A DNA stretch of 64,000 bases, taken from NCBI RefSeq assembly GCF_900143005.1, contig NZ_FRCS01000003.1, positions 62,001 to 126,000 of the forward strand, written 5' to 3'. Positions 42,968 through 57,123 of the stretch are shown here, in pieces. A model generated the notes under the pieces. That model did no database searches. It was not told the origin of the DNA and saw only the letters and a program-made list of their open reading frames with translations. The translations under genes and the position numbers were made by a program. Numbering within the stretch: position 1 is the stretch's first letter; every line of letters begins with the position of its first letter. This stretch comes from Cryptosporangium aurantiacum. GTDB lineage: Bacteria; Actinomycetota; Actinomycetes; Mycobacteriales; Cryptosporangiaceae.

Positions 42968-43645
42968 CTACTCCGTCGTCACTTTCGCCGAGAGCTGGCT
43001 CGTGCTCATCGGCTGGGTGGGCGGGCCGGAGGGGCCGACTCCGGTGGGGTGCGTGTGCGCGTTGAAGAACTGCTGGAACGTGTTGCCGAGGACGACGCTC
43101 TCGGACGCCTCCGCGCCGAGCTTCACCTTCTCGGCGGTGACGACGACCGACCCGTCCTTCTCGAACCGGACCGAGCACGTGCCGTTGCCGTTGGCCAGCA
43201 GCACCACCTGGCCGTCGTCGTCGAACGTCAGCTCGTGGCCGCTGCTGGTCCGCAGCACGGCGAGCGTCGCGGTGGCGTCCTTGCCGTCGTCGGCGGTCGG
43301 CGCTTCCGGCCCGGCCTCGGTACCGAGGTCGTCGGCTCCCCCGGTGCTCTCCGGCGCGCTCCAGAACGTCCCCGACCAGATCGGACGGCTCACGTCGCCG
43401 CCCGCGAACTCGATCCAGACGGTCGCGCCGATCGCCGGGAGGAACAGCATGCCGACCTTCGCGGTGCCACCGACGGGCACGCAGGGCAGCGCCCAGCCGG
43501 TGTCGACGTCCTCGCCCAGCAGCGCGGGCACCCGGGCGCGGATGCGCCCGATCTTCTCCGGATCGGTGACGTCGGTGACGACGCCCTCGTACTTGCCGTA
43601 GAAGCGGTCGACGTGCCAGCCGGGTTCGTCGTCAGCGCGGATCAT
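42968..43645 (-). CDS. Spike protein (gpV/VgrG gp5-like OB-fold)
   Basis: A 225-residue spike protein. YEGVVTDVTDPEKIGRIRAR and VGGTAKVGMLFLPAIGATVW are the gp5/gpV OB-fold hallmarks, and RPIWSGTFW closes the domain. The C-terminal half (VRFEKDGSVVVTAEKVKLG, FNAHTHPTG) has the repeats of the trimeric beta-prism needle. It punctures the target envelope. ATG 43645 overlaps the hub gene stop by four bases. Length is typical of eCIS spikes (Afp8 is longer because hub and spike are fused there; here they are separate genes). Confidence 0.85.
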   Translation of the reverse strand: MIRADDEPGWHVDRFYGKYEGVVTDVTDPEKIGRIRARVPALLGEDVDTGWALPCVPVGGTAKVGMLFLPAIGATVWIEFAGGDVSRPIWSGTFWSAPESTGGADDLGTEAGPEAPTADDGKDATATLAVLRTSSGHELTFDDDGQVVLLANGNGTCSVRFEKDGSVVVTAEKVKLGAEASESVVLGNTFQQFFNAHTHPTGVGPSGPPTQPMSTSQLSAKVTTE

Positions 43646-44787
43646 GTCGCCGGCACCTCCTCGGCGGACTGGCCGTAGGCCTCGCTGCCGGACTGGCCGG
43701 TGGCGTTGCGGAGGGCGGTGAACGTCTGCAGCAACGCCCCGTCCTGCAGCGTCGTGCGCACGGACTGGACGTAGTAGATCCCGGAGAACCGCCGGCCCGT
43801 CCCCCGGACGAGCACCGGCCTGCGGGCCCGGAGAATGCCCCGGTAGAGCGCGGGGTCCAGTTCCGCGCGCAGCTCGACGACGAACCGCGCCGCGTCGGTC
43901 GCGGCGGACGTCTCGGCCCCGATCGCCTCGTCGAGCGGGAACGGATCGCGGACCAGTGCCCGTGCGGCCGTCGCGCCCGCGCCGGTCAGGCCCGCCTCGA
44001 CGGCGGCCGCGGCGTCGTCCCCGCCGATCGCCTCCAGCGTCGGGGTGCCGGCGCCCCGCACGATGCGTTTGGCGATCGGGTCGAGTGCCGACGCGGTCGC
44101 GGTGATCGGGCCGGTCGCCAGCAACTGCAGGTCGGCCCAGTTGAGGCACTCGCCCTCCTGCAGGATGACGAGGTCGGGCTGCGGTGGGCCGGTGACGTCC
44201 GGTGGGCCGAAGTGCCCGACCACCTGGCCGCGGGCGTCGTCGTACTCGAAGTAGAAGCGCGCGCCGTTCCGGCGTGCGAGGTGCTGCAGGAAGCGCCAGT
44301 CGGTGGCGCGCTGCGTCAGCCGCTGCCGGTCCTCGTCGTAGAAGACCGCGGTGTCCGCGACCTCGGCGCCGAGCTGGTAGCCCGCGAGTACCTGCGTGAC
44401 GACGTCGCTGTCCTTGACGTTGCGCCAGGCGGCGACGCGTTCCTCGGCGTCCAGGAGCACCGCGGCGTCCATCGCCAGCACCTCGAGGTACGCGTTGGCG
44501 GCGACCGACTCGAAGTGCGGACGCACGTGCGTGAGCACCCCTTCGAACAGCCGCTGGGTCAGCCCGCCGGGCGGTGCGACCTCGAAGCTCAACGCGGTGC
44601 CCGGCACGAAGAGGTCGTCGTCGAGCGGGCCGAACTCACCGTCGGCGCGCTGCACCAGGCTGAAGCGCAACGCCAGCACCGACGGGTCGCAGTCGCTCTC
44701 GCGCACCTCGGCACGGGTCAGCTGCGCGAGCACGACCGCGTCCAGCGGCTGTCCCGCGACGAGAACCCCGATCCGGGCGGACGGCAT
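43642..44787 (-). CDS. Tail hub protein (phage late control gpD-like)
   Basis: A 381-residue hub protein of the gpD/gp27 type. Typical stretches are LRFSLVQRADGEFGPLDDDL, FEVAPPGGLTQRLFEGVLTH, ATDWRFLQHLARRNGARFYF and SGIYYVQSVRTTL. A trimer of it forms the ring that adapts the sixfold tube to the threefold spike. It precedes and overlaps the spike gene. ATG 44787 lies six bases after the LysM gene stop. Confidence 0.85.
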   Translation of the reverse strand: MPSARIGVLVAGQPLDAVVLAQLTRAEVRESDCDPSVLALRFSLVQRADGEFGPLDDDLFVPGTALSFEVAPPGGLTQRLFEGVLTHVRPHFESVAANAYLEVLAMDAAVLLDAEERVAAWRNVKDSDVVTQVLAGYQLGAEVADTAVFYDEDRQRLTQRATDWRFLQHLARRNGARFYFEYDDARGQVVGHFGPPDVTGPPQPDLVILQEGECLNWADLQLLATGPITATASALDPIAKRIVRGAGTPTLEAIGGDDAAAAVEAGLTGAGATAARALVRDPFPLDEAIGAETSAATDAARFVVELRAELDPALYRGILRARRPVLVRGTGRRFSGIYYVQSVRTTLQDGALLQTFTALRNATGQSGSEAYGQSAEEVPAT

Positions 44788-44793
44788 CGGCGG

Positions 44794-45069
44794 CTACCGG
44801 TCCGGAGGAATGCTGATCGGCTCGGACGGCACGACGACGTCGAACGGATCCGGCTCGGTGGCGGCGTCACAGATCCGCCAGAAGCGGGTCGGGTCGCGGT
44901 AGAACCGCCAGGCCAGCAGGTCCAGCCGGTCGGTGTCGGTCGGCTGGATCGACAGGACGGCGTTCGATGCCGGGGTGGCACGCAACGCGAGCAGCGGCTG
45001 GCTGCCCGCCCACTCGTCGTCGACGGGAACGACCGGAGTCGTGGCGTACCGGCTTCGCCGGTCGATCAT
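44794..45069 (-). CDS. LysM-like tail protein (gpX/Afp7-like)
   Basis: A 91-residue protein. The C-terminal half IQPTDTDRLDLLAWRFYRDP then RFWRICDAATEPDPFDVVVP has the LysM layout, as in phage gpX and eCIS tube-base proteins. In contractile particles such proteins clamp the hub to the tube base and may contact peptidoglycan. Gap to its neighbours is short on both sides. N-terminal residues 1-30 are less conserved. Confidence 0.75.
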   Translation of the reverse strand: MIDRRSRYATTPVVPVDDEWAGSQPLLALRATPASNAVLSIQPTDTDRLDLLAWRFYRDPTRFWRICDAATEPDPFDVVVPSEPISIPPDR

Positions 45070-45092
45070 GGACGAACCTCCTCTGCGCGGTG

Positions 45093-45767
45093 CTAGAGCG
45101 GCAGGATCGTGGATCCCTGGGCGGCCGTGGTGTCGTAGTAGAGGCGGGCCAGTTCGCGCCGCCCGGCCCCGGTGTGGTCCAGCGCCGACCGGACTGCCGG
45201 GTCGTCGCGGGCCGCGGCCTCACCGAGCACCTCGAGCGACGCCTCGATCTCGGCCCGCACCGGGTTGAGGTGGCTGTTGTAGACCGACTCGTCGATCTTC
45301 AAGCTGCTGATCCGCACCGGAAGGACTCGCTTGCGCCCCCAGACCAGCAGCACGGTCGGGCGCGGGCTCGCCGCCCGCACCGGCTCGGTCCCGTCCGAGG
45401 TGGCCGCCGCGTCCGACTCGGCGGGATACATCAGGTCCTCGATCGCGGCGATCTCCGGTGCGATGCCGAACTCCGGATCGAACCGGCTGACCTCGGCGTC
45501 ACGGTCGTCGAAATCGAGGCGGATCTGCACGCTGAAGCTCTCCTTCACCGCACCCGCCGTATCGGCGGCGGCCTCCGACGCGGGCGGCGCCGAGGCCCCG
45601 GGCGCGGCACCCTCCACCCCGGTCGCCTGCTGGCCGGCTTCCACGGCCACCGTCCGGCTCAACGACTCCGGGTTGAAGCGGAACGGGATCACCCGCCGGC
45701 GATCGGGATATCCGCCGGGCTCGTAGGCGATGAACGCGCCGCGCAGGTAGCGGGCCTCTCGGGTCAT
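45093..45767 (-). CDS. CIS tube-initiator protein
   Basis: A 224-residue protein with RYLRGAFIAYEP, IPFRFNPESLSRTVAVEAGQ and VSRFDPEFGIAPEIAAIEDL, matching the N-terminal CIS tube domain found in Afp7/Pvc7-like tube-base proteins. It probably starts polymerisation of the inner tube on the hub. The C-terminal LysM-like module seen in many relatives is encoded by the separate downstream gene. ATG 45767 overlaps the preceding stop by four bases. Confidence 0.78.
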   Translation of the reverse strand: MTREARYLRGAFIAYEPGGYPDRRRVIPFRFNPESLSRTVAVEAGQQATGVEGAAPGASAPPASEAAADTAGAVKESFSVQIRLDFDDRDAEVSRFDPEFGIAPEIAAIEDLMYPAESDAAATSDGTEPVRAASPRPTVLLVWGRKRVLPVRISSLKIDESVYNSHLNPVRAEIEASLEVLGEAAARDDPAVRSALDHTGAGRRELARLYYDTTAAQGSTILPL

Positions 45768-46036
45768 GGTGCCTCCCCCGTGATCCGGCGGTACAGCTCG
45801 TCGGCGAGGCGCGCCGCTGCTCCGGGCCCGGCGAACCAGTCCGGAGCCACCGGCTCCACCTCGACCAGCTCCAGCGCGCGGAGCGGCGCCTCCCGGTCGG
45901 CCGCCATCGGCGCAGTGGCCAGACGGGCGGCCAGCAGTGCGAGCGCCCGCCGGAGCGTCTGCTCGGCCTCGCCGACCGCGGCCTCCCGGCCGATCTCGAC
46001 CGCGATCCGGTCGATCCGCACCCGGACATCGGTCAT
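45764..46036 (-). CDS. Unrecognised 90-residue eCIS protein
   Basis: A small helical protein (VRIDRIAVEIGREAAVGEAE, RRALALLAARLATAP, ARLADELYRRITG). No family is recognised. It is fixed in the operon by four-base overlaps with the AAA+ and tube-initiator genes. Small genes next to the ATPase in other eCIS loci are often assembly factors; that is inference. Confidence 0.6.
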   Translation of the reverse strand: MTDVRVRIDRIAVEIGREAAVGEAEQTLRRALALLAARLATAPMAADREAPLRALELVEVEPVAPDWFAGPGAAARLADELYRRITGEAP

Positions 46037-48072
46037 CGTGGCCTCCGGTGTCCGTTGACCAGCCCGGCCAGCGGGCCGAACGCCGCCGCGTCGGCCGGTC
46101 GGCCGGCCTTCTGCAGCTCACGCGCGGTGGCACGGACGACGTGCGCGGCGGTGACGCGGCCGGATTCGGTCGCGGCCGCGAGGTGGACGGCGGCCAGCCC
46201 GATGTTGTGGATCGCGCCGCCGCTGAGCTGGAACCGGTCGGCGAGCACCTCGATCGCGAGGTCGTCGTCCCGCCACTGCGGGCCGGGCAGCGAGCGTTCC
46301 CAGAGCGCGCGGCGCAGGTCGCGGTCGGGAGCCGGGAACTGCAGGACGAACCGCAGCCGGCGGACGAACGCCCCGTCGATGTTGCCTTGCAGGTTCGTGG
46401 TGAGGATCGCGACGCCGTCGTAGGACTCGAGGCGCTGGAGGAGGTACCCGGCTTCGATGTTGGCGTATCGGTCGTGCGCGTCCTTCACCTCCGAACGGCG
46501 CCCGAACAACGCGTCCGCCTCGTCGAACAGCAACAGCCCGTGACCGGCCTCGACCTCGTCGAAGACCTGGCCCAGGGCCTTCTCGGTCTCGCCGATGTAC
46601 TTCGACACGACCTGGCTCAGGTCGATCCGGTACAGGTTCAACCCGAGTTCGGACGCCAGACAGCGCGCCGCGAACGTCTTGCCGGTACCGGATTTTCCGG
46701 CGAACAGGCACGTCAGGCCCGTCCCGAGCGGGTCGGTCCGCTCGTGGTCCATCGCCCAGGCGACACGATGACTGCTGCGGTGCCAGGAGACGATCTCGTC
46801 GAGCTGACGGCGGAGCTCGTCGGGAACCACCAGGTCGGACAGGCGGGCGCTGGTCGGGAGCGTGCTGACGTACCGGCTCATCCGGCGGGCGCCGAGTGCG
46901 CGAATCCGGTCGGCCAACACGTCGTCCGCGGCGGCGGGGTTGCCGGCACCGGTCGGGTTGCCGGGACCGGTCGGGTTGCCGGGACCGGCCGAGCCTTCCG
47001 CGGCTGGGTCTGCCGGGTCGGGGTCGGTGGCACGGCGCATGTCGTCCGCGTCGCGGACGGCTATCCGCGCTTCCTCGGTGTTGACGCGGAACCGCGCGGC
47101 GAGCGCCCGGGCGGTGTCCACTCCGAAGTGTTCTGCCCAGACGCGACTCGCCTCCGGGTACCCGATCGACCCGACGTCGTAGGTCGCCAGGTCGCCGGTG
47201 TCGGTGGCCTCGTCGACGAGGACGACCAGGCGGCCGCGGACGGCGCCCAGCCGCGCCAGCGCCGACTGGGTAACCGTGGGCAGCCGATGCAGGTCCAGCA
47301 CGAGCAGGCCACCGCGGAGCCTGGCGAGTCCGGCGATCGGGGGAAGCTGCTCGTCGGCCGTCACGAGGTTCGCCGGCAGACCGAGGTGGGTGGCGAGGTC
47401 ACAGCCGAACTGGCGGCCACCCCGCCGGGAGGCTCCGCGCAGCACCAGCAGGCCGCGGTGCTCGAGCAGGTAGGCGCCGTGGCGCACACGGACGACGTCG
47501 AACGCGGTCGCCGCGGCCGGACGCACGGTGCTGACCAGCAGGTCGGGGTGCCCGCCCAGCGCCGACGGGTCGTCCTGCGCGACGACGAGTTCGGTGTGCA
47601 CCAGCCGGAGCGCGTGCTGGCTGTGAGGCGTCCCCGGCGCGCTCTCGATGACCTCGACGAGCCCGAGCCAGTGCGCCTGGCCACCGTTCAGCGCACCTGC
47701 CAGCGCCTCCCCGAACGGGACTTCGAGCAGGCCACGCAGCAGACGAGCGACGACGACCGGCGTCGGGAGCTGCTGGCGCGAGTCCTCGGCGAGCAGGCTC
47801 ACGGCAGCCGCGGCCTCCGGGTACCGCTCGACGGCCGCGCAGAGCATCACCAGCCAGTAGTTCTGCGGCGGCAACCCGAGCTCGTCGCAGAGGCGCACCC
47901 GGGCCGGGTCGTCCGAGCGCTCGTGGTCGCGCATCCGGTCACGCAGTTCGGCTCGGTCGCCCGGACGCGCGGTCCACCCGGCATCGGCGGCCGGTACCTG
48001 GTCGGCCGGGCCGGCGAGATGGCAGGCCGCGCCCAGCAGGACGGCCTCGCGCATCAGCGCAGCCCCGTTCAT
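46033..48072 (-). CDS. eCIS AAA+ ATPase (Afp15-like)
   Basis: A 679-residue protein with one clear AAA+ module near residues 430-590: Walker A FAGKSGTGKTFAARCL, Walker B GLLLFDEADALFG, sensor-1 region VAILTTNLQGNID and arginine finger region VRRLRFVLQFP. The N-terminal 400 residues carry a degenerate ATPase-like region with LLVLDLHRLPTVTQSALARL. An 18-bp tandem repeat encodes a Gly-Asn-Pro-Thr linker between them. Such ATPases are conserved in eCIS loci and are thought to assist particle assembly rather than recycle the sheath as ClpV does. ATG 48072 overlaps the DUF4255 gene stop by four bases. Confidence 0.85.
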   Translation of the reverse strand: MNGAALMREAVLLGAACHLAGPADQVPAADAGWTARPGDRAELRDRMRDHERSDDPARVRLCDELGLPPQNYWLVMLCAAVERYPEAAAAVSLLAEDSRQQLPTPVVVARLLRGLLEVPFGEALAGALNGGQAHWLGLVEVIESAPGTPHSQHALRLVHTELVVAQDDPSALGGHPDLLVSTVRPAAATAFDVVRVRHGAYLLEHRGLLVLRGASRRGGRQFGCDLATHLGLPANLVTADEQLPPIAGLARLRGGLLVLDLHRLPTVTQSALARLGAVRGRLVVLVDEATDTGDLATYDVGSIGYPEASRVWAEHFGVDTARALAARFRVNTEEARIAVRDADDMRRATDPDPADPAAEGSAGPGNPTGPGNPTGAGNPAAADDVLADRIRALGARRMSRYVSTLPTSARLSDLVVPDELRRQLDEIVSWHRSSHRVAWAMDHERTDPLGTGLTCLFAGKSGTGKTFAARCLASELGLNLYRIDLSQVVSKYIGETEKALGQVFDEVEAGHGLLLFDEADALFGRRSEVKDAHDRYANIEAGYLLQRLESYDGVAILTTNLQGNIDGAFVRRLRFVLQFPAPDRDLRRALWERSLPGPQWRDDDLAIEVLADRFQLSGGAIHNIGLAAVHLAAATESGRVTAAHVVRATARELQKAGRPADAAAFGPLAGLVNGHRRPR
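46937..46990. repeat. Three tandem 18-bp repeats inside the AAA+ ATPase gene
   Basis: Three copies of an 18-bp unit (GGGTTGCCGGGACCGGTC on the plus strand, one or two differences between copies) encode a Gly-Asn-Pro-Thr-Gly linker between the N-terminal and AAA+ parts of the ATPase. Confidence 0.8.
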
Positions 48073-49244
48073 GCGACCAGGTCCAGCACGACGTAGGGCG
48101 TGTAGGTCTGGATGCCCACGCGCAGCGCCAGCCGCCATGGCCCGGAGCGCTCCGGCAGGCCGGCCGCCCGGACGGTGACCGTGCCCGCAGCGACCGCGGT
48201 CACCGGGACGGTGCGCACCTCCGACGGCGCCGCGACGCCGCCGTCCGGCCAGAACACCGCTTCCTCCGCGCCGTCGAGGTTCGCGCCGGTCAGAACGACG
48301 TCGGTGGAGGAATCGTGCGGACCGGCGGGAGCGTCGACGCTGGGCGCCTCCGGAGAGGCGATCCGCAGGCTGCCCGGACGCGAGGCCATGCCGCGCCCGG
48401 TGAGCGTGAGCGGGTAGGTGCCCGGGCCCAGCGTCTCGAGCCCGCCGGCGTCCAGATCGAGCAGGAACGGCAAGTTCTCGCTGGGTTCCGCCGTCACACC
48501 GCCCTCCGGGCGGGCCGCCGTCACACCGCTCTCCGGGAGTTCGGCGGCGACGCCGCCGATCGTGAGCCGGTCGGGGCGGACGGCGGGATCCGCTTCGATG
48601 CGCACGCGTCCGCCCTGCCGGACGATGTCCGGCACGAGGCGCACCAGCACCGGGCGCGTACCCGCGCGGATCTCCAGCGCCAGGCCGCCCGGGCGGACGA
48701 CCAGCGCCGGTTCCTCGTCACCGAGCTGCGAGACGAGCTGGACCGGAGCGACGTCGAAGAGCGCCCAGGGCTGCAGCGCGAGCTCCTGCGACGACCACAC
48801 CTTCTCCACCTGCTCGAGCGTCACCGCGCGCTGGACGACCGCGAGCGGACCGTCGCCCAGCTGGGTGAACGCTCCGGATCCGGTCGTGAGTGGCAGCTTC
48901 AGCATCGGCACGTCGTGGTAGAGCGTCATCACCCGGCCGAGGACGTGGTGCGCCGCGACCGGATCCCCGTCGTCGGCGCCGGACGCCGTGACGAGGTAGG
49001 CGCAGGAGAGCGAGAGCGGCGGCGGGCGACGGGTGCCGTCCGGGCGGATCTCGGGCAGGTCGTTGACGTGCTGGGGCTGCCGGGTGGCGTAGAGCAGCGT
49101 GATCCGGACGCCCGGCTCGGTGTTCGCCTCGGCTTTCCGCGGTGGGCCGGGCTGGACGTCGACGACGCCGGTCTCGTCCTTGATGTGCTCGGCGAGGACC
49201 TGGGCGACGTCGTAGAGGCTTGCGAACGCGGCGCACACGGTCAC
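48069..49244 (-). CDS. DUF4255-domain protein (Afp16/Pvc16-like terminator cap)
   Basis: A 391-residue protein. The N-terminal 185 residues match DUF4255/Pvc16: FASLYDVAQVLAEHIKDETG, RITLLYATRQPQHVND, LSLSCAYLVTASGADDG and HHVLGRVMTLYHDVPML. This domain caps the tube and sheath and sets particle length. The C-terminal half holds one or two IPT/TIG-like beta domains (DVVLTGANLDGAEEAVFWPD). GTG 49244 overlaps the next gene stop by four bases. IPT additions are common in actinobacterial versions. Confidence 0.82.
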   Translation of the reverse strand: MTVCAAFASLYDVAQVLAEHIKDETGVVDVQPGPPRKAEANTEPGVRITLLYATRQPQHVNDLPEIRPDGTRRPPPLSLSCAYLVTASGADDGDPVAAHHVLGRVMTLYHDVPMLKLPLTTGSGAFTQLGDGPLAVVQRAVTLEQVEKVWSSQELALQPWALFDVAPVQLVSQLGDEEPALVVRPGGLALEIRAGTRPVLVRLVPDIVRQGGRVRIEADPAVRPDRLTIGGVAAELPESGVTAARPEGGVTAEPSENLPFLLDLDAGGLETLGPGTYPLTLTGRGMASRPGSLRIASPEAPSVDAPAGPHDSSTDVVLTGANLDGAEEAVFWPDGGVAAPSEVRTVPVTAVAAGTVTVRAAGLPERSGPWRLALRVGIQTYTPYVVLDLVA

Positions 49245-50944
49245 CACCCCCCGCGGCGTCCGCCGAACCGGAGTCCGGGATCGATGCCGTGGCTGCGTGG
49301 CGGGGTCGGTTGCCGCGTGATGGGGCTCTGCGAGCGGGCCGACGGCTTCAGCGGCGGGGCGGCGCTGCGGATCTCGATGCGGCCGATCTCGATCGTGACT
49401 CCGCCGGGTGCCCCCCGGTGCGGCTGACCGGGCCGTCGGTCTTCCGGCGGTACCGGCAGCAGCGACGATGCCCGGTGGGTGTCGCCCCACGGGCGGGCGA
49501 GAAAGCTCCGACCGGACGATGCCCCGCCGCCGAACCCTTGCATTGCCGCGCCGGAAACGGCCGCAGCGGTGTCGGAGGCCGACACGGCGGCGCCATGGGC
49601 CGCCGCGGCCGCGCTACGAGCCGAGGCGGCGAGGTCGGAGGCCGCCGCTGCGGCACCGCGGGCCGACCCGGCCGCGCCACCGGCCGCCACGGCAGCGCCA
49701 TGGGCCGACACAGCCGCACCACGAGCCATCACCGCCGCGCCACGAGCCGACGCGGTTGCGCCACCGGCCGCCGCGGCCGCACCACCGGCCGACACAACCG
49801 CGCCACGAGCCGACGCAGTTGCACCACCGGCCGACACAGCCGCACCACCGGCCGACACGGCCGCGCCACGAGCCGACGCCGCTGCGCCACCGGCCACCGC
49901 GGCCGCGCCGTGGGCCGATGTGGCGGCGCCGTGGGCCGACGTGGCGATACTGGAGGCCGACCCGGCCGCGCCACCGGCCAGCGCGGCGGCGCCACGGGCC
50001 CCGGCGGCGGAGTCGGAGGCCGACACTGCGGCGCCGCGGGCCGACGTGGCCGCGCCACCAGCCGCTGCGGCGGCGCCGGAGGCCCACGCGGCCGCGCCAC
50101 CGGCCGACATGGCGGCGCCGGGGGCCCATGCGACCGCGCCACTGGCCGATTCGGCGGCGCCGGAGGCCCACGTAGCCGCGCCACCAGCCGCTGCGGCGGG
50201 GTCGGAGGCCCACGTGCCCGCGCCACCGGTCGACGTGCCGGTGGCGGGCGGCAGCGGGGTGGCGTGTGGCGAGAGTGGGACCGGTGCCCTCGTTGCCGGG
50301 GTGCCCCGTCCCGCGGACATCGGAAGCGGCTCGTAAGCCGTCCCCATCGGAGGGACCGGGTCCGCCCAGCCCGCAAGTCTCCCCGAGGAGGCACCGCCGG
50401 TCGCCCACGGCTCCCCGGCGCCTGCCTGCCCGCGGAACCGTATGGAATCCGACCGGCCCGGGGCGGCCGGATCCCCCACACTTCCCCAGGTCCCTGGGGC
50501 GTTCCGCTCCGCCGCGTACGAGCCGCCCCCCGCGGACAGGCCCACTCCCGCACCGCGGCTCGTTCCCTCGCCCCGGCTCCCCGCCGCGCCCCGGCTCGCG
50601 GCCGCACCCAGGCCCGCCGCGTCTGGGCTCCCCGCCGCGTCCCAGTTCCCCGCCGCGCCCCGGCCCGCCGCCGCGTCCCAGTTCCCCGCCGTATCCCGGC
50701 CCGCCGCCGTGCCCCGGCTCGCCGCCCCTCCGACCGTCGAAGGCCCGCCCGGGCCTCCCCGGACGCCGCGCGTCGGCTGCAGGGGCAGGTGCTGCCCGGT
50801 CACCGGTCCGGCGCGGGCCGCCGACAGGGCACGCAACGGCCCCGGCAGCCCACCCGCCGGAGGTCCCAACACCGCACTCCGGCCAGGCGCACCCGGCGGC
50901 CCGGCCCGCAGCGGACCGGCCAGCAGGCGTCCGAGGCTCGGCAT
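49241..50944 (-). CDS. Ala/Gly-rich heptad-repeat protein of the eCIS operon
   Basis: A 567-residue low-complexity protein. The first 260 residues are Pro/Gly/Arg-rich. Residues of about 235-470 repeat a seven-residue unit of the AAVSAGG/AASARGA type more than thirty times, encoded by a 21-bp period. The C-terminus carries VTIEIGRIEIRSAAPP, a segment I recall at the ends of proteins encoded beside DUF4255 in other eCIS loci. The antisense strand is also open over this stretch because of the repeat, but position in the operon and the four-base overlap with the DUF4255 gene support the minus strand. A tape-measure or linker role is possible. Function is unknown. Confidence 0.6.
   Translation of the reverse strand: MPSLGRLLAGPLRAGPPGAPGRSAVLGPPAGGLPGPLRALSAARAGPVTGQHLPLQPTRGVRGGPGGPSTVGGAASRGTAAGRDTAGNWDAAAGRGAAGNWDAAGSPDAAGLGAAASRGAAGSRGEGTSRGAGVGLSAGGGSYAAERNAPGTWGSVGDPAAPGRSDSIRFRGQAGAGEPWATGGASSGRLAGWADPVPPMGTAYEPLPMSAGRGTPATRAPVPLSPHATPLPPATGTSTGGAGTWASDPAAAAGGAATWASGAAESASGAVAWAPGAAMSAGGAAAWASGAAAAAGGAATSARGAAVSASDSAAGARGAAALAGGAAGSASSIATSAHGAATSAHGAAAVAGGAAASARGAAVSAGGAAVSAGGATASARGAVVSAGGAAAAAGGATASARGAAVMARGAAVSAHGAAVAAGGAAGSARGAAAAASDLAASARSAAAAAHGAAVSASDTAAAVSGAAMQGFGGGASSGRSFLARPWGDTHRASSLLPVPPEDRRPGQPHRGAPGGVTIEIGRIEIRSAAPPLKPSARSQSPITRQPTPPRSHGIDPGLRFGGRRGGW
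49545..50235. repeat. Degenerate 21-bp tandem repeat array
   Basis: The seven-residue coding unit of the surrounding gene is repeated throughout as 21-bp copies (plus-strand core CACCGGCCGACACGGCCGCG and variants). Copies differ mainly at third positions, showing an old array under coding constraint rather than a fresh duplication. Limits are approximate. Confidence 0.75.
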
Positions 50945-50945
50945 C

Positions 50946-51887
50946 TCAGCAGCGCCCCTCAGCCGGGCCCGTCACGACGGCCCCGCGTCGGACAGACCGG
51001 CCAGCAGGGCGGCGTCGGCGTCGCGCTCGAGCAGCAGCAGATAGGCGAGCCGCCGGGACAGCGACAGACCGAAGATGTCGCGTTCGGACCAGTGATACGC
51101 CTGCGCGATCTGGTGCACGTCGCGCAGGAGTCGCTGCGCTCGCCCGATCATTTCGAAAAAAAAAGCTCGTCACGTCGAACGGCGCCTGGATGGGCTCCCG
51201 GCAGTGCGAGCACTCCAGCGTCATCTCGAGGTCGAGCGCGGGCAGCCGGGATTCGATCGCGGTCTCCAACACTGCGCGGTGCCGCATCGGTAGGCCCCGG
51301 ACGAAGTCCTCATCCAGCCCGTCCACGCGCTCGCCGTAGCGGCGTAAGCATCGGGCCAGCAGCCAGGTGCGCCGCTCGGCGGCGCCGATCGGCCCGGCGT
51401 CGAACAGATCCTCCTGCGCTCCCGCAGTGGGCAGCGACAACTCCGCCGGGCCGACGTCCGGCAGGTCCAGCGTGACCAGCCGATCCGGCACCTCGAAGTC
51501 GAGCGGCAACGCGTCGAGCGAGAACGTCGCACCACTTGTGCGGTCGCACGAGGGGCAGAGCACCTCGGCGCTCACGTCCGGACCGAGCGACATACGGCGC
51601 AGCCGTACGAGTTCCCGATCACGTTCGGCGACGAGCAACGCCCGCACCTGCTCGCGGGCCTCACCCGGCTCGGCGCCGGGCGCGACGAGACACCGCGCCA
51701 GGATCTCGTTGCACAACCGAGCGGTGTTGGCCTCAGTCTGGTGCCGCTCCAGGTACTCCTCCTCCCAACCCGACAACTCGCGGAGCGGCAGCGCCGCCGG
51801 AGCCTCGGTCGTCGGTGGCGAAGGCGAAGACGGCGTCTGCGGAGCGGCCGTGCTGAGCGGGCTTCGGACGCGTTCGGTGGCCGGCAC
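50946..51887 (-). CDS. Baseplate hub assembly chaperone-like zinc-ribbon protein (zero-frame product)
   Basis: The frame encodes 313 residues, but only the first 244 look real. Residues 40-130 are helical (LSGWEEEYLERHQTEANTAR). Two zinc-ribbon half sites follow, Cys-Pro-Ser-Cys in EVLCPSCDRTSG and Cys-Ser-His-Cys in TLECSHCREPIQAPFDVTSF. The arrangement resembles the T4-type baseplate hub assembly chaperones of eCIS loci. After FFF at residues 242-244, encoded by a run of nine T, the frame turns into about 70 Arg/Ala-rich residues without family character. The expected continuation lies one frame away (50972-51151). The start is GTG 51887, four bases after the tube gene. Confidence 0.65.
   Translation of the reverse strand: MPATERVRSPLSTAAPQTPSSPSPPTTEAPAALPLRELSGWEEEYLERHQTEANTARLCNEILARCLVAPGAEPGEAREQVRALLVAERDRELVRLRRMSLGPDVSAEVLCPSCDRTSGATFSLDALPLDFEVPDRLVTLDLPDVGPAELSLPTAGAQEDLFDAGPIGAAERRTWLLARCLRRYGERVDGLDEDFVRGLPMRHRAVLETAIESRLPALDLEMTLECSHCREPIQAPFDVTSFFFRNDRASAATPARRAPDRAGVSLVRTRHLRSVAVPAARLSAAARARRRRRPAGRSVRRGAVVTGPAEGRC
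50972..51151 (-). CDS. DUF6760-like C-terminal segment in the +1 frame
   Basis: A 59-residue frame from ATG 51151: MIGRAQRLLRDVHQIAQAYH then WSERDIFGLSLSRRLAYLLL. The Tyr-His-Trp-Ser-Glu block and following RR-YLLLLE match DUF6760-type segments that accompany or end hub chaperone proteins in eCIS loci. No ribosome binding site precedes the ATG. In this frame the nearest upstream stop is at 51172, just before the T run. Joining it to the upstream protein needs one base less in the T run or a +1 frame change. It may be translated on its own, fused by slippage, or both. Confidence 0.6.
   Translation of the reverse strand: MIGRAQRLLRDVHQIAQAYHWSERDIFGLSLSRRLAYLLLLERDADAALLAGLSDAGPS
51156..51164 (-). 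other. Nine-T homopolymer at the frame junction of the hub chaperone gene
   Basis: On the coding strand nine consecutive T follow GACGAGC. Such a run is exceptional in DNA of about 70% G+C. It lies exactly between the zinc-ribbon part and the DUF6760-like part. With eight T the two parts would read as one protein (…TSFFFEMIGRAQ…). Transcriptional slippage, phase variation or a sequencing error are the candidate explanations. Confidence 0.7.
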
Positions 51888-51891
51888 GGAC

Positions 51892-52389
51892 TTACGTCTC
51901 GGCCGGCTCGGGCAGGGGTTCGACCGAGAACCCCTCGTACTCGAACTTGAGCGTCTGGATCGCGACCGCGTTGGCGTTGGCGTCCATCTCCGGGAGCACC
52001 TGGAATTCGGAGACCCAAGCCCGGTGCAGGACGAACGCCATCACGGCGGTGGCCTGGAGGTTGAGCACCTCGACCGTGACTTCCTTGCGATAGAGCTTGA
52101 GCGACGCCGCCCCGTCGCCGCGCGGCGAGTTGACCTGGTTCGCCCACTCGATCAGCTGCTGGTCGTGGCTGAGGCCTGCTTCCAGCGTGATCGGCTCGAA
52201 TTTGGTGCGGCCCGGCAGTTTCCGGACGATCGAATCGCCACCCGCCTCGCGCCACTCGACGGTCTCCGTCGATCGTTTGATCGCGGACATCTTCGACAGC
52301 CCGGCGACGTAGAGGTTGTCCCACTTGACGCGGAATTTGAAGTTCGCGTACGGATCGATGCGATGCGTGTTCACCGAAAATTGCGCCAC
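51892..52389 (-). CDS. Inner tube protein
   Basis: A 165-residue tube protein: DPYANFKFRVKWDNLYVAGL, then TVEWREAGGDSIVRKLPGRT and FEPITLEAGLSHDQQLIEWA. These are the signatures of T4 gp19-like tube subunits in eCIS and tailed phages. Hexameric rings stack into the tube that is pushed through the target envelope and can hold cargo. It follows the sheath gene by ten bases. Only one tube gene is seen, whereas Afp-type loci often have two or three. Confidence 0.88.
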   Translation of the reverse strand: MAQFSVNTHRIDPYANFKFRVKWDNLYVAGLSKMSAIKRSTETVEWREAGGDSIVRKLPGRTKFEPITLEAGLSHDQQLIEWANQVNSPRGDGAASLKLYRKEVTVEVLNLQATAVMAFVLHRAWVSEFQVLPEMDANANAVAIQTLKFEYEGFSVEPLPEPAET

Positions 52390-52399
52390 AGCATCCTCC

Positions 52400-54004
52400 T
52401 TACGCGCTCTGCGTCTTCTGGCTCAGATGGACGACGACAAATTCCGCCGGGCGTAGCGGCGCGAAACTCACCAGAATGTTGACGACACCCGCGGCCTGAT
52501 CGAGTTCGGTCGTGGTATCGGCATCAACTTTGACGCCATATGCCTCATCGCTGGTGCGGCCGGCGAAGGCGCCATTACGGAACTGGGATTCCAGGAAGGC
52601 ATTGATCGAGGCGCGGAGGCTACTCCAGAGCGGCTCGTCGTTGGGCTCGAAGACCGCCCATTGGATCCCGTTGTAGATACTGGTTCGCAGGAAAATCGCC
52701 ATCCGCCGGACCGGCACGTACCGCCATTCACTCGCGGGAACCATCGTGCGCGTGCCCCAGACCACCCGGCCCGCGCCGGGAATGAGCCGTAGCGCGTTGA
52801 TGCCCACCGGGTTGAGGTCGTCGCTGTGCAGGTCGTTGAGGCGATGTTCGAGCGCGATCGTCCCGTTGAGGGTGGCCTCGGTGCCCGCCGGGGCTTTCCA
52901 GACCCCCCGCCGTCCGTCGGTCCGGGCGTACAGACCGGCGACGAACGCGGACGGAGGCAGCGTGATCGTCGGATTCCGTCCGGCGCCGACGATGTCGCCG
53001 GCGACGACGTGCGGCCAGTACAGCGCGGTGAAGTTGCTCGCGTTCAGCTCGGTGAGGCCGGCCAGGGCCCCCTGCGTCGCGCTGGTCGGATCGACGGCGT
53101 CGCTCTGGCGCGGAAGATCACCGATGAAGAACAGGTCGCGACGCGGGCGGTTCTCCGCGAAGCCGATGAACTGGTCGACGTACTGCCCGTAGTCGGCGTC
53201 GTCGGCCAGCAGCGCGTCGCACGTCGCGACGAGGAGTGCGGCGTCGTCGACGTCGGCCAGGCGGTCGGCCAGCAGCTGGCCGTAGTCCACCGGCCCGAGC
53301 TCGCCGCCGCCGCCGAAACCCCCCGTCAATTCCGTCGCGCCGTCGACGATGTCCCGCTGCGTCGGGTTGGACGGTGTCGAGCCGAGCGCGTCGAGCTGCG
53401 GAGCCTCGAGCGGCAGCGTCTCGTCCCAGCGGATGAACAGGCTGCGACGCAGGACGTCGACCACGTAGTTCTCGTCACCGGGGTCGAGCGACAAGCGATC
53501 CCAGGTCTCGACCAGCCGGCGCTCTCCGCCCGGCTCGGGAGACTCGTACACGACCGCGATCCGGAAACGCTGCGGCGTCGATCCGCTCGCGGCATCGGGC
53601 GCTGCTCCACTCGCGGCGAGGAACGCCACCGAGACCGATCCGCCCCAGCGGCCGGGCGAACTCGCCAGCACGCTGCCTTGGCTCGCGACCGCGATTCCTT
53701 CGTCCTCGTCGGGATCGGCGGCCCGCAAAACGTACGCCGACGATCCACCGTTCTGGTAAAAAGCGTCGATGGCGTACGCGGTCAATACCCGGCTCGGGGC
53801 GCCCGGCGGATCTCCGTCACGAGTGCGGAAATATCCACCGAACAGTCGTTGGTAATCAGCGCGACTCTTGATTCTGGTGGGAACCAAGGGACCACGTTCG
53901 GTTTCGCCGACAAAAATAGTGGTGCTCGTCGCCGCACCCTCGATCGAACGCGCGCCGGACGGCACCTCCTGCACATAAACGCCCGGATGCAGCAAGGTCG
54001 CCAT
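52400..54004 (-). CDS. Contractile sheath protein
   Basis: A 534-residue sheath protein. The N-terminal arm LLHPGVYVQEVPSGARSIEG and TTIFVGETERGPLVPTRIKS, and the C-terminal domain (QWAVFEPNDEPLWSSLRASI, YGVKVDADTTTELDQAAGVV, NILVSFAPLRPAEFVVVHLS) are diagnostic of tail sheaths that contract by handshake of extended arms. It is the first gene of the structural operon, as expected for its high copy number. Only one sheath gene is present, as in phages and Streptomyces CIS. The start ATG 54004 follows a TACCAT hexamer by eight bases. Confidence 0.92.
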   Translation of the reverse strand: MATLLHPGVYVQEVPSGARSIEGAATSTTIFVGETERGPLVPTRIKSRADYQRLFGGYFRTRDGDPPGAPSRVLTAYAIDAFYQNGGSSAYVLRAADPDEDEGIAVASQGSVLASSPGRWGGSVSVAFLAASGAAPDAASGSTPQRFRIAVVYESPEPGGERRLVETWDRLSLDPGDENYVVDVLRRSLFIRWDETLPLEAPQLDALGSTPSNPTQRDIVDGATELTGGFGGGGELGPVDYGQLLADRLADVDDAALLVATCDALLADDADYGQYVDQFIGFAENRPRRDLFFIGDLPRQSDAVDPTSATQGALAGLTELNASNFTALYWPHVVAGDIVGAGRNPTITLPPSAFVAGLYARTDGRRGVWKAPAGTEATLNGTIALEHRLNDLHSDDLNPVGINALRLIPGAGRVVWGTRTMVPASEWRYVPVRRMAIFLRTSIYNGIQWAVFEPNDEPLWSSLRASINAFLESQFRNGAFAGRTSDEAYGVKVDADTTTELDQAAGVVNILVSFAPLRPAEFVVVHLSQKTQSA

Positions 54005-54020: not shown

Positions 54021-54129
54021 CCTCGCAACTGCCCGCTGGCTAGGGCTAGTAAAAAGAGACGAACCAGTTTCGCGGTGGCGCAGGGCGTAGCGCGAAAGGG
54101 GCACCCGGAATGATGGAAGGCCATTGATC

Positions 54130-57123
54130 ATGACTCGGGCACATAACGTTTTCGCGTGCCTCGTGCACGAAGCGCCGGAATGTGTGGACGATTTGGTCGA
54201 CAACCTTCGATTCCTCGACCCCGCTTCGGACGTTCTGCTCTACGACGGAAGCCGCAGCGGAGCGCTGCTGCACGGCACGGGGCTGGCCGCGCGTGACGGC
54301 GTGATCGTCCATCCGGCGCCGCGGCCGATGGCGTGGGGGGCGCTGCACGACTTCGCGATCGATTGCCTGCGGTTCGCCCGCGACGAGCTGAACGCCGACG
54401 CGCTGACGATCGTCGACTCGGATCAGCTCGCGGTCCGCCCCGGGTACTCGCAGTACCTCGCATCGTTCCTGGACGCCCATCCGGCGGCGGGTTGCCTGGT
54501 CAGCGCGCCGGGCCCACAACCGCGGCGCAGCATGATCGCGCCGGCGCGTGCGGCCTGGAAGGAAGCCGAAGCCTGGCGGCACTTCGTCCGGCGCTTCCCG
54601 GCCGGCGAGGAGAAGTTCCCGCACTGGACGTTCTGGCCGTCGACGGTGTTCACCCGGCGCGCGACTGATGACCTCCTGCGGCTCTGGGCGGACGACGAGC
54701 TGCGCTCGCTGCTGGCCCGGACGTCGATCGTGGCGACCGAGGAGGTGCTCCTGCCGACGCTGGTCGCGCTGTCGGGTCACGATGTCGTCCGCAATCCGTG
54801 CTCGTACGACCTGGTCCGGTTTCGCGTCGCGTACCACCCGCGGCAGATCGATGCGGCTGCGAACCGGTCCGATGTGTACTGGGTCCACCCGGTCGCCCGC
54901 CGGCTCGCCGATCCGGTGCGGACGCACATCCGCCGGCGGTTCGGGCAGTACGCGGCAGCCACCCGGCGCCGCCACGTCGGACCGTTCGACACCACACCGT
55001 CGCGGCCGCTCCCGTTGCTGCTCCCCCTGCTGCGGCGGCTGGACGCCGTGCCCGGGCGGCTGACCCACGACGAGGCCGACCTCCTCCTGGCCGCAGCCAC
55101 CGAGGCGGCCCAGCCCGACCGCGCCGCCCAGCCCGACCGCGCCGCCCAGCCCGACCGCGCCGCCCAGCCCAACCGCGCCGCCCAGCCCAACCACACCACC
55201 CAGCCCAACCACACCACCCAGCCCAACCACACCACCCAGCCCAACCACACCACCCAGCCCAACCACACCACCCAGCCCAACCACACCACCCAGCCCAACC
55301 ACACCACCCAGCCCAACCACACCACCCAGCCCAACCACACCACCCAGCCCGACCGCGCCGCCCAGCCCGACCGCGCCACTCAGCCGGGCCCGGACGGCCC
55401 GGACGGCCCGGACGGCCCGGACGGTCCGGACGGTCCGCGCCGGATCGTGGCGGTCGGCGTCGAAGCTCGGATCGCCGTGCTGCTCCGTGCGGCGGCCCGG
55501 CGTGCGACGCCGCAGGCCGAGTTCTCCGACGGTGACCCCGGCGGAGACAGCCCGATCGACCTGCTGGTCGCCGGGAGCGAGGCAGGTTACGCGGCGACCG
55601 TCGGCAACGTCAGTGCGGTCGAGGCCAGAGTGGCGCCCGGTGGCCTGGTCGCGGTCCACGGGTACGCCGAGCGCACCGGAGGCCGCGACCTCGTCGACCA
55701 TCTCGTGGCCGCCGGCGGCTATCGGCCGGTGCAGCGGGTCGGCACGCTGGCCCTCCTCCGCAAGACGACCACCGCCGGGCTCGTCCCGATCGGTCCGCAC
55801 CTGGAAAACATGGCGCCGGTCCGCGGTTGGCTCGCACCCGACGAGGCGGCGCTCCTGGCCCTGTGCACGGCCTGGGCGCTCCGGCTTCCCGATCCGGGGG
55901 CGATCGTCGAGGTCGGCAGCTACTGCGGCCGCGGCACCGTCGTGCTCGGCGGCGTCGCCGCGGCGATCGGCGGACCGGCCCGGGTGCACGCCGTCGACCC
56001 GTTCGACGGCGTGGTCGGCGCGGTCGGAGCAGACCTGGCCGAGACCGGCCCGACCCTGGCGGAGTTCACGTCGGCGATCGAGGCCGCCGGTCTGGCCGAC
56101 GTCGTCCTTCCCCGTCCGGGCCGGTCGGGAGACATTCCGTGGGACGAACCGATCGCGCTGCTCGTCGTCGACGGGCTGCACGACCAGGCGTCGGTGGCGA
56201 GCGACGTCCGGCGGTTCGCGCCCTATCTGCTCCGGGGCGGCTTCCTCGCGTTCCACGACCACGCCGCCTACTACCCGGGGGTTCAGGCGGTCGTCGCTGA
56301 ACTCCTGCGGGGCGACACGTTCGAGCAGGTGGCGCAGGTCGGGAGCCTCGTCGTCCTGCGCGCGCTGACCGATGCGCCCGCCGTGGCGCTCTCGGACGGC
56401 CGGCCGCTGATCTCGTGCCTGATGACGACGCGCGACCGGCGGGCCTCGGTGCCGCGGGCGATCGGGTACTTCCTGCGCCAGGACTACCCCCACCGCGAGT
56501 TGATCGTCGTGGACGACGGAACGGATTCGGTCGCCGATCTGATCCCCGATGACCCGCGCATCCGGTATCTGCGGCTGACCGGTCGCCACACGGTCGGCGC
56601 CAAACGCAACATCGGGTGCGAGCAGGCACGCGGCGAGCTCGTCGTCCACTGGGACGACGAGGACTGGATGGCCGGCCGGCGGCTCCGGTATCAAGCCGCC
56701 GAGATGCTGGCTCACGACGTCGATATCTGCGGTTTGAGCACGCTCTACTTCTGCGATCCGTCGAGCGCCCGGGGATGGCAGTACACCTATCCGTCCTCGC
56801 GACGCCCCTGGGTGGCGGACGCGACGTTCTGCTATCGCCGCGAGCTGTGGGCGTCCGAACCGTTTCCGGACCGGAGCGGCGACCTCGACACCCACTACCT
56901 GCGGCGGGACGGCGCGAAGCGCGTCCGCGTGCTGGCCGATCCGTCGTTCTACGTCGGGATCGTCCGTCCCGGCCGGGCGGGCGCCACCGATGCCCGGTGG
57001 CGCCCGCAACCCCTCAGCGCGATCACCGCACTGATGGGCGCCGACTGGTCGCTCTACGCACCCGCTGCGGAAAACACGGCCGTGCTCACCGAAGGGACGG
57101 CCGGAAATCCGCACCCGGTGTGA
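54130..57123 (+). CDS. Three-domain glycosyltransferase/methyltransferase fusion
   Basis: A 997-residue fusion. Residues 1-310 resemble a nucleotide-sugar glycosyltransferase (NVFACLVHEAPECVDDLVDN, LTIVDSDQLAVRPGYSQY). A 90-residue repeat linker and a Gly-Pro-Asp tract follow (328-436). Residues about 550-750 form a class I SAM methyltransferase: IVEVGSYCGRGTVVLGG, VHAVDPFDG, IALLVVDGLHDQA. Residues about 755-980 are a GT2 glycosyltransferase with VVDDGTDS and the DxD-like WDDEDW. It probably builds or modifies a surface polysaccharide or glycoprotein. ATG 54130 follows GGAAGG. It is divergent from the sheath gene, so a role in modifying the particle or its target receptor is possible but unproven. 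Confidence 0.78.
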   Translation: MTRAHNVFACLVHEAPECVDDLVDNLRFLDPASDVLLYDGSRSGALLHGTGLAARDGVIVHPAPRPMAWGALHDFAIDCLRFARDELNADALTIVDSDQLAVRPGYSQYLASFLDAHPAAGCLVSAPGPQPRRSMIAPARAAWKEAEAWRHFVRRFPAGEEKFPHWTFWPSTVFTRRATDDLLRLWADDELRSLLARTSIVATEEVLLPTLVALSGHDVVRNPCSYDLVRFRVAYHPRQIDAAANRSDVYWVHPVARRLADPVRTHIRRRFGQYAAATRRRHVGPFDTTPSRPLPLLLPLLRRLDAVPGRLTHDEADLLLAAATEAAQPDRAAQPDRAAQPDRAAQPNRAAQPNHTTQPNHTTQPNHTTQPNHTTQPNHTTQPNHTTQPNHTTQPNHTTQPNHTTQPDRAAQPDRATQPGPDGPDGPDGPDGPDGPRRIVAVGVEARIAVLLRAAARRATPQAEFSDGDPGGDSPIDLLVAGSEAGYAATVGNVSAVEARVAPGGLVAVHGYAERTGGRDLVDHLVAAGGYRPVQRVGTLALLRKTTTAGLVPIGPHLENMAPVRGWLAPDEAALLALCTAWALRLPDPGAIVEVGSYCGRGTVVLGGVAAAIGGPARVHAVDPFDGVVGAVGADLAETGPTLAEFTSAIEAAGLADVVLPRPGRSGDIPWDEPIALLVVDGLHDQASVASDVRRFAPYLLRGGFLAFHDHAAYYPGVQAVVAELLRGDTFEQVAQVGSLVVLRALTDAPAVALSDGRPLISCLMTTRDRRASVPRAIGYFLRQDYPHRELIVVDDGTDSVADLIPDDPRIRYLRLTGRHTVGAKRNIGCEQARGELVVHWDDEDWMAGRRLRYQAAEMLAHDVDICGLSTLYFCDPSSARGWQYTYPSSRRPWVADATFCYRRELWASEPFPDRSGDLDTHYLRRDGAKRVRVLADPSFYVGIVRPGRAGATDARWRPQPLSAITALMGADWSLYAPAAENTAVLTEGTAGNPHPV
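55111..55380 (+). repeat. Fifteen-copy 18-bp minisatellite
   Basis: Fifteen 18-bp units encode QPDRAA-type and QPNHTT-type hexapeptides: three QPDRAA, one QPNRAA, nine QPNHTT (core CAGCCCAACCACACCACC), one QPDRAA and one QPDRAT. The nine central copies are identical, a sign of recent expansion. A shorter 9-bp Gly-Pro-Asp array follows to about 55437. It forms a flexible linker inside the glycosyltransferase fusion and should vary in length between strains. Confidence 0.95.

Follow-up and report, generated by a model that had tools for sequence, protein, structure and literature searches.

The window, by which we mean the whole 64 kb stretch of DNA analysed, carries a gene cluster that is an extracellular contractile injection system (eCIS), since genes for a sheath, a tube, a Pvc16_N protein and an AAA ATPase occur together. 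The hub-chaperone gene lies directly behind the tube gene and is interrupted, with respect to its reading frame, by a run of nine T. The features on which the following analysis draws are, in the order of transcription:

52400..54004, minus strand: sheath protein (PF17482, PF04984)
51892..52389, minus strand: inner tube protein, gp19-like, the gene before the hub chaperone (PF06841 E=1.5e-38, TIGR02241)
51156..51887, minus strand: hub-chaperone N-half (zinc-ribbon, T4 gp26-like; PF12322), listed from its GTG start and ending in SFF(F) at the T9 run
51156..51164, minus strand: T9 run (A9 on the plus strand), in the zero frame the three Phe codons UUU UUU UUU
51153..51167, minus strand: AGC_UUU_UUU_UUU_CGA as putative shift site, either for +1 at UUU_CGA or for -2 on U9; homologues have their -1 and +1 sites at the same protein position
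51148..51150, minus strand: TGA in the -1 frame, two codons past the run, which matches the position of the zero-frame stop in the sister gene L096 (from the sequence and the comparison with L096)
50972..51154, minus strand: C-half (DUF6760/gp51-like) in the +1/-2 frame, GAA ATG ATC GGG ... stop (C-half profile and GC by codon position)
50946..51155, minus strand: zero-frame tail past the run, 69 codons (ORF list; scanned with Pfam and NCBIfam)
49241-50944, minus strand: long Ala/Gly/Ser-rich protein after the hub chaperone, no Pfam match (ORF list, Pfam)
48069..49490, minus strand: Pvc16_N eCIS protein (PF14065 E=5.4e-20)
46033..48138, minus strand: AAA ATPase of the eCIS operon (PF00004 E=1.4e-21)
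43642..45767, minus strand: overall span of the downstream eCIS genes (Pfam scan), namely the next three
45096-45767, minus strand: CIS_tube-type protein (PF19266, 28.0 bits, cut-off 27)
44797-45069, minus strand: small protein, no match in the Pfam scan
43645-44787, minus strand: GPD baseplate hub (PF05954)

The eCIS genes adjoin a 999-codon ORF on the plus strand (54124-57123) that contains a long TQPNHT tandem repeat.

At the junction the coding minus strand of the window reads ACG AGC TTT TTT TTT CGA AAT GAT. The T9 word, TTTTTTTTT, occurs a single time in the genome of 9,579,923 bases, and the T8 word, TTTTTTTT, has one other copy there. Within the 64 kb window the run is the only one of at least seven identical bases, and T8 was reached in none of 100 shuffles of the window, which bears out the original prediction that such a run is exceptional in this G+C-rich DNA. 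The zero frame stays open through the run and ends 69 codons further on, at 50946; the tail encoded in between has no match in Pfam or NCBIfam. The C-half, read from its ATG, occupies 50972-51151 in a frame that is +1 (equal to -2) relative to the N-half, and it is recovered at E=4e-16 by a profile of homologous C-halves built without the window. Over this stretch the three codon positions have a GC of 0.78/0.46/0.88 in the frame of the C-half and of 0.86/0.78/0.46 in the zero frame, so that the second frame, and only that one, has the pattern of coding DNA. Frames and profile thus uphold the prediction that T9 splits the hub-chaperone gene, with the C-half in the +1 frame behind the run.

Both halves can be placed in known families, with differing success. 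The N-half of the window passes the cut-off of PF12322, T4_baseplate (30.0 bits, cut-off 24.5), matches phrog_150, 'baseplate hub', weakly (E=1.5e-4), and shares 49% identity with L096, the gene of the sister eCIS. The C-half of the window matches neither PF20546 (DUF6760) nor any other Pfam family, nor any PHROG. The predicted 'DUF6760-like' continuation is therefore real as a homologous C-half according to the profile, while the Pfam family itself misses the window. Among the four other C-halves tried against DUF6760, that of L072 passes the cut-off of 27 (29.3 bits), that of L067 falls just under it (26.5), that of L062 is weak and that of L096 has no match. The C-half of L067 also matches phrog_634, 'baseplate hub assembly catalyst', over positions 69-115 of 121 only, and the N-half of L068 additionally matches PF10109, 'Phage tail assembly chaperone proteins, E, or 41 or 14' (27.6 bits, cut-off 25). 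No relatives of known structure were found for the queries A4 and A2 at E 0.1, and no plasmid relatives of the N-half of the window or of L096 at E 1e-5. Partial N-half matches in plasmid records are annotated as hypothetical protein, in Nostoc as 'phage tail assembly protein'. Many actinobacterial genomes (L098-L126, L138-L155) match just the first ~110 residues of the N-half and represent a shorter relative.

Homologues of the gene occur in three architectures. In the first eight (seven genomes of genus g55 and one of the window's genus) both halves share one frame and the junction has no T run, which prompted the reading that the window simply holds a broken gene. This was overturned by loci whose first frame ends at the junction, beginning with two of the same order that end at a T7 run and have the C-half in the -1 frame. 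A single-sequence search of genome contigs with the N-half of the window found nothing; homologues on genome contigs were reached through an alignment of split-type N-halves. That search returned 30 loci, several of them from MAGs, in eight phyla by record title (Actinomycetota, Chloroflexota, Pseudomonadota, Acidobacteriota, Myxococcota, Rhodothermota, Cyanobacteriota and Planctomycetota). All 30 have the C-half in the -1 frame, and 29 of the 30, L086 being the exception, carry NNT TTT TTN in phase at the junction, closely followed by a stop. A scan of viral contigs with broad N-halves yielded further -1 loci. Two viral contigs (L302, L303), distant relatives outside the counts, have AGT/AAT TTT TTC at the junction and, by eye, a C-half-like stretch in the -1 frame.

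The third architecture was seen in five loci from genomes of G310's order (L133-L137), in which CTG TTT C is followed by a stop and the C-half lies in the +1 frame. Scanning viral contigs with these five gave 472 relatives, of which 80 were kept, so that 85 loci were examined. The site NTN TTT C is present in 83 of the 85, and in 80 of those 83 the profile places the C-half in the +1 frame; the sequence ends after the site in L214, L246 and L262 and before it in L258 and L266. This +1 set consists mostly of viral contigs. Among named phages, which stand outside the cluster counts given below, LuckySocke, BRock and pSt2308 have the +1-type site, and Bacillus phage SP-15 has TTT TTT CAC with, by eye, a C-half-like stretch in the +1 frame. 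The records of LuckySocke, BRock and pSt2308 annotate no frameshift at the site; those of LuckySocke and BRock annotate a small CDS in the +1 frame instead.

For counting, the 239 of about 294 sequences whose N-half reaches its end were used (those dropped are mostly partial matches) and grouped at 90% identity into 134 clusters: 46 with a -1 C-half, 45 with a +1/-2 C-half including the window, 40 with a single frame and 3 with no C-half, proportions that are no census, as the profiles used to collect the loci were themselves of these types. The in-phase heptamer U_UUU_UUN stands at the junction in 43 of the 46 -1 clusters and in none of the 40 single-frame clusters, and T6 in any frame is absent from the 9,996 remaining codons of the 46 -1 N-halves. 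Similarly, TTT-C is found at the junction in 44 of the 45 +1 clusters, the window included, and in 2 of the 40 single-frame clusters; elsewhere in the +1 genes Phe is encoded by TTT 57 times and by TTC 188 times, and TTT-C occurs at 13 of these 245 Phe codons. Every shifted-frame cluster with heptamer or TTT-C has a zero-frame stop 2-6 codons past the site except the window, where the stop comes after 69 codons. Like its family, the window has a conserved junction at which the C-half (+1/-2) leaves the frame of the N-half, and there an in-phase, shift-prone site, UUU_UUU_UUU_CGA, that goes with a +1 C-half. The flanks retrieved contain a tube homologue in 44 of 46 -1, 42 of 45 +1 and all 40 single-frame clusters. 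Judged by its homologues, the hub-chaperone junction is a putative recoding hot spot. L086, L129/L130 and L155 have a -1 C-half without the heptamer, the junctions of L129/L130 and L086 reading AAT TTC TTG or CAT TTC CTG, and L100 has its C-half in +1/-2 without UUU_C, behind GAC TTT TTT TGG. Downstream RNA structure found no support as a general stimulator (median z -0.96 for the -1 clusters, 28% of them below -2, and 0.3 for the +1 clusters).

These data also bear on the view that the window holds two separate genes, with the C-half starting at its own ATG, 51151. An in-frame ATG does lie four bases past the T9 run, a small separate CDS is annotated downstream of the N-half, +1 by coordinates, in LuckySocke, BRock and SP-15, and gp26 and gp51 of T4 are separate proteins (PMC3004832, from an excerpt). 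However, no Shine-Dalgarno-like sequence precedes the ATG, so that the earlier suggestion of this internal ATG as a further start is a weak one, and across the family the C-half has a start codon preceded by an SD-like sequence in 4 of 43 -1 clusters and 0 of 44 +1 clusters. A start codon in the C-half frame near the site, without SD, is present in 18 of 43 and 29 of 44. An independent start of the C-half was therefore mostly rejected as a general route, with start and SD together in only 4 of the 87 frameshift-site clusters, while weak separate initiation of C-halves is conceivable on these sequences. The 40 clusters that encode one continuous protein also speak against separate genes, and they show that the long form is workable as a single chain. 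The homologues thus do not consistently keep two genes with ribosome binding sites of their own, and for the window copy we regard this reading as highly improbable.

The relation of the three architectures was followed in a quick tree that took in 128 clusters and omitted six whose N-halves are short; in it the three states change 5 times compared with a mean of 58.8 when shuffled, and several long branches in this tree were flagged. The window stands beside L096 with top support (100*), and the pair has the single-frame L131 and L157 as neighbours, at lower support (81). L096 stems from a Myxococcaceae MAG, and the 48,003-base contig assigned to it encodes sheath, tube, CIS_tube, GPD, gp25, AAA ATPase and Pvc16_N proteins, so that it comes from the same type of eCIS as the window. 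The sister eCIS has an ORF (L312:3242-4966, plus strand) in the same place as, and of similar size to, the Ala/Gly/Ser-rich gene of the window, and the two start alike (RLLAGPLR in the window, RWLAGPLR in the sister).

The junction of L096 also carries T9, there in phase for -1 and followed by an early zero-frame stop, which makes a clean -1 architecture. The T9 run is thus real as a feature common to two assemblies. Compared with L096, the register of the window is displaced by one nucleotide and the early stop is absent. Single-frame relatives (L131, L132, L157, L298-L301) share the junction F(D/E)-x-x-x-FF-(F/L)-x-(E/D)-(M/L/V/I). The distance from Cys to Trp is 112 nt in the window, 113 in L096 and 114 in L157, a spacing taken for these named rows only, as 114 nt was obtained in 11 of the 40 single-frame rows and most of the others are mismeasured. 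The junction spacing of the relatives is kept in the window only by a -2 step, whereas with a +1 step at UUU_CGA the window would lack one residue at the junction compared with the single-frame relatives and L096. The register of the window admits several readings: a +1 step, a -2 step, slippage of RNA polymerase, and an error in the run length or a recent indel.

The last of these readings holds that the run length was misassembled or changed very recently, that the true or ancestral state is the -1 architecture of the sister or a single frame, and that the +1/-2 register is not biological. Homopolymers are a classic place of sequencing errors, the genome is a 44-contig draft, and the whole pattern of the window appears off by one nucleotide, in that the early stop of L096 is in the zero frame with the C-half in -1, while the homologous TGA of the window is in the -1 frame. 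Against an error stands the same combination of TTT-C with a +1 C-half in 43 other clusters and, by eye, in SP-15. As the run is the sole one of at least seven bases in the window and the sole T9 in the genome, the rate of assembly errors cannot be judged from other runs. We consider an error or recent indel somewhat unlikely.

Transcriptional slippage on T9 would produce mRNAs with U-runs of varied length, some of which would join the halves. It has a precedent in type III secretion genes of Shigella, which yield extended products (PMC5009743, from an excerpt), and the uniqueness of T9 in the genome would suit it. The sites of the family are mostly in-phase T6-T8 or a single UUU_C, which fits ribosomal better than polymerase slippage, and we hold the latter to be quite unlikely for the window. 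The least probable of the rival readings is that of a pseudogene, a broken hub chaperone in a decaying eCIS. The gene is out of frame and has a long unmatched tail, but the other scanned eCIS genes are open and match families, except for the small protein at 44797-45069 and the Ala/Gly-rich gene; moreover, the codon pattern of the C-half is intact and the shift falls at the recoding point of the family. These estimates concern the window copy and overlap in part with that for the main reading. It is quite probable, on comparative grounds, that the window gene belongs to a hub-chaperone recoding family and undergoes some form of shifting; the copy likely shifts frame by +1, by -2 or by transcriptional slippage. 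We place frameshifting in some form first, an error or indel second and a pseudogene last. The frameshift of the tail-chaperone kind proposed in the original prediction is well supported for the gene family, by in-phase -1 and +1 sites, early stops and a shifted C-half. For the window copy the support is partial, as its direction and register are unusual and slippage becomes one of several options.

By analogy with lambda G/GT, a programmed frameshift would most likely produce a short and a long hub chaperone. Most ribosomes would finish the gp26-like N-half and release the short chaperone, while a fraction would slip into the other frame on the Phe codons and go on to translate the gp51-like C-half. 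One mRNA would thereby give both products, the short form probably in excess and the long form in the minority, as for G and GT, and both might help hub formation, as gp26 and gp51 do in T4. The shift would be -1 on U_UUU_UUN in the main bacterial and some viral lineages and +1 on UUU_C in another, mostly viral lineage, further lineages having one continuous frame. For the window, three routes can be envisaged: a +1 step from UUU to UUC before the CGA codon, a -2 step in which both tRNA-Phe would re-pair on U8 or more, and slippage of RNA polymerase invited by the U9 run. On balance we lean towards a wider view in which contractile machines with T4-type tails, which are said to lack the G-T frameshift, would have a conserved decoding switch of their own, located in the gp26/gp51 hub chaperone and common to eCIS, phages and headless tail clusters. 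While its position in the protein stayed fixed, the direction of the shift would have varied (-1, +1 and possibly, in the window, -2 on U9), so that selection would act on the ratio of long to short form and not on the frame.

The +1 motif of influenza A PA-X is UUU_CGU. PA-X resembles the present case in shifting by +1 (PMC5009743, from an excerpt) and differs in using a eukaryotic ribosome, and we claim no relation between the two. Closer parallels are the tail chaperones of tailed phages, which frameshift by -1, -2 or +1 according to excerpts of a 2016 recoding review (PMC5009743); the same excerpts describe G-T frameshifting as widely conserved in long-tailed phages, T4 excepted. Lambda gpG/gpGT and the P2/Mu-type chaperones are alike in that ribosomes shift frame close to where the first ORF ends and so append a C-terminal part (PMC5009743, from an excerpt), whereas the present protein is a chaperone of the baseplate hub, gp26/gp51-like, in machines whose tube is of the gp19 type. 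For T4, gp26 and gp51 are counted among the chaperones of hub assembly; gp51 is absent from the finished particle and is called essential, of unknown function, while genetic support is cited for gp26 in the hub (PMC3004832, from an excerpt). The likeness to T4 consists in the N-half matches to PF12322 and phrog_150 and the match of the L067 C-half to phrog_634; the difference is that gp26 and gp51 are separate, whereas in this family their counterparts would be joined by a frameshift or stand in one frame. Among the literature matches listed, none concerned frameshifting in an eCIS or in a T4-type hub chaperone, although an earlier report may exist, and the excerpts seen of PMC5009743, PMC3711429, PMC10885494, PMC3004832, PMC9024508 and PMC11948020 contain no hub-chaperone frameshift. 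Known, then, are frameshifting tail chaperones in all three directions; seemingly new is the predicted frameshifting of gp26/gp51-like hub chaperones.

If true, the frameshift in gp26/gp51-like hub chaperones would be the missing counterpart to the T4 exception, and it would explain why the C-half is annotated as a separate small gene or omitted in the phage records inspected. It would also show how protein-delivery injection machines ration a factor of hub assembly, provide a natural set in which the direction of the shift changed while the protein junction stayed, and allow the role of T4 gp51 to be tested by means of the long and short forms.

Some -1 loci lie in other surroundings. Those of S. 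xylophagus (L305/L306) and Sphingomonas (L309/L310) belong to clusters for contractile tails, which include spike genes and gp25- or baseplate J-like ones; of the 17 ORFs scanned, a subset of the ORFs of these clusters, none matched a capsid family, and Pvc16_N has no match in either of the genomes. In three Streptomyces loci (L077, L079 and L080) the -1 site is AAT TTT TTA, which places UUA in the A-site. UUA is a rare codon in Streptomyces that is linked to bldA and development, and the frameshift in these three loci might depend on the bldA tRNA.
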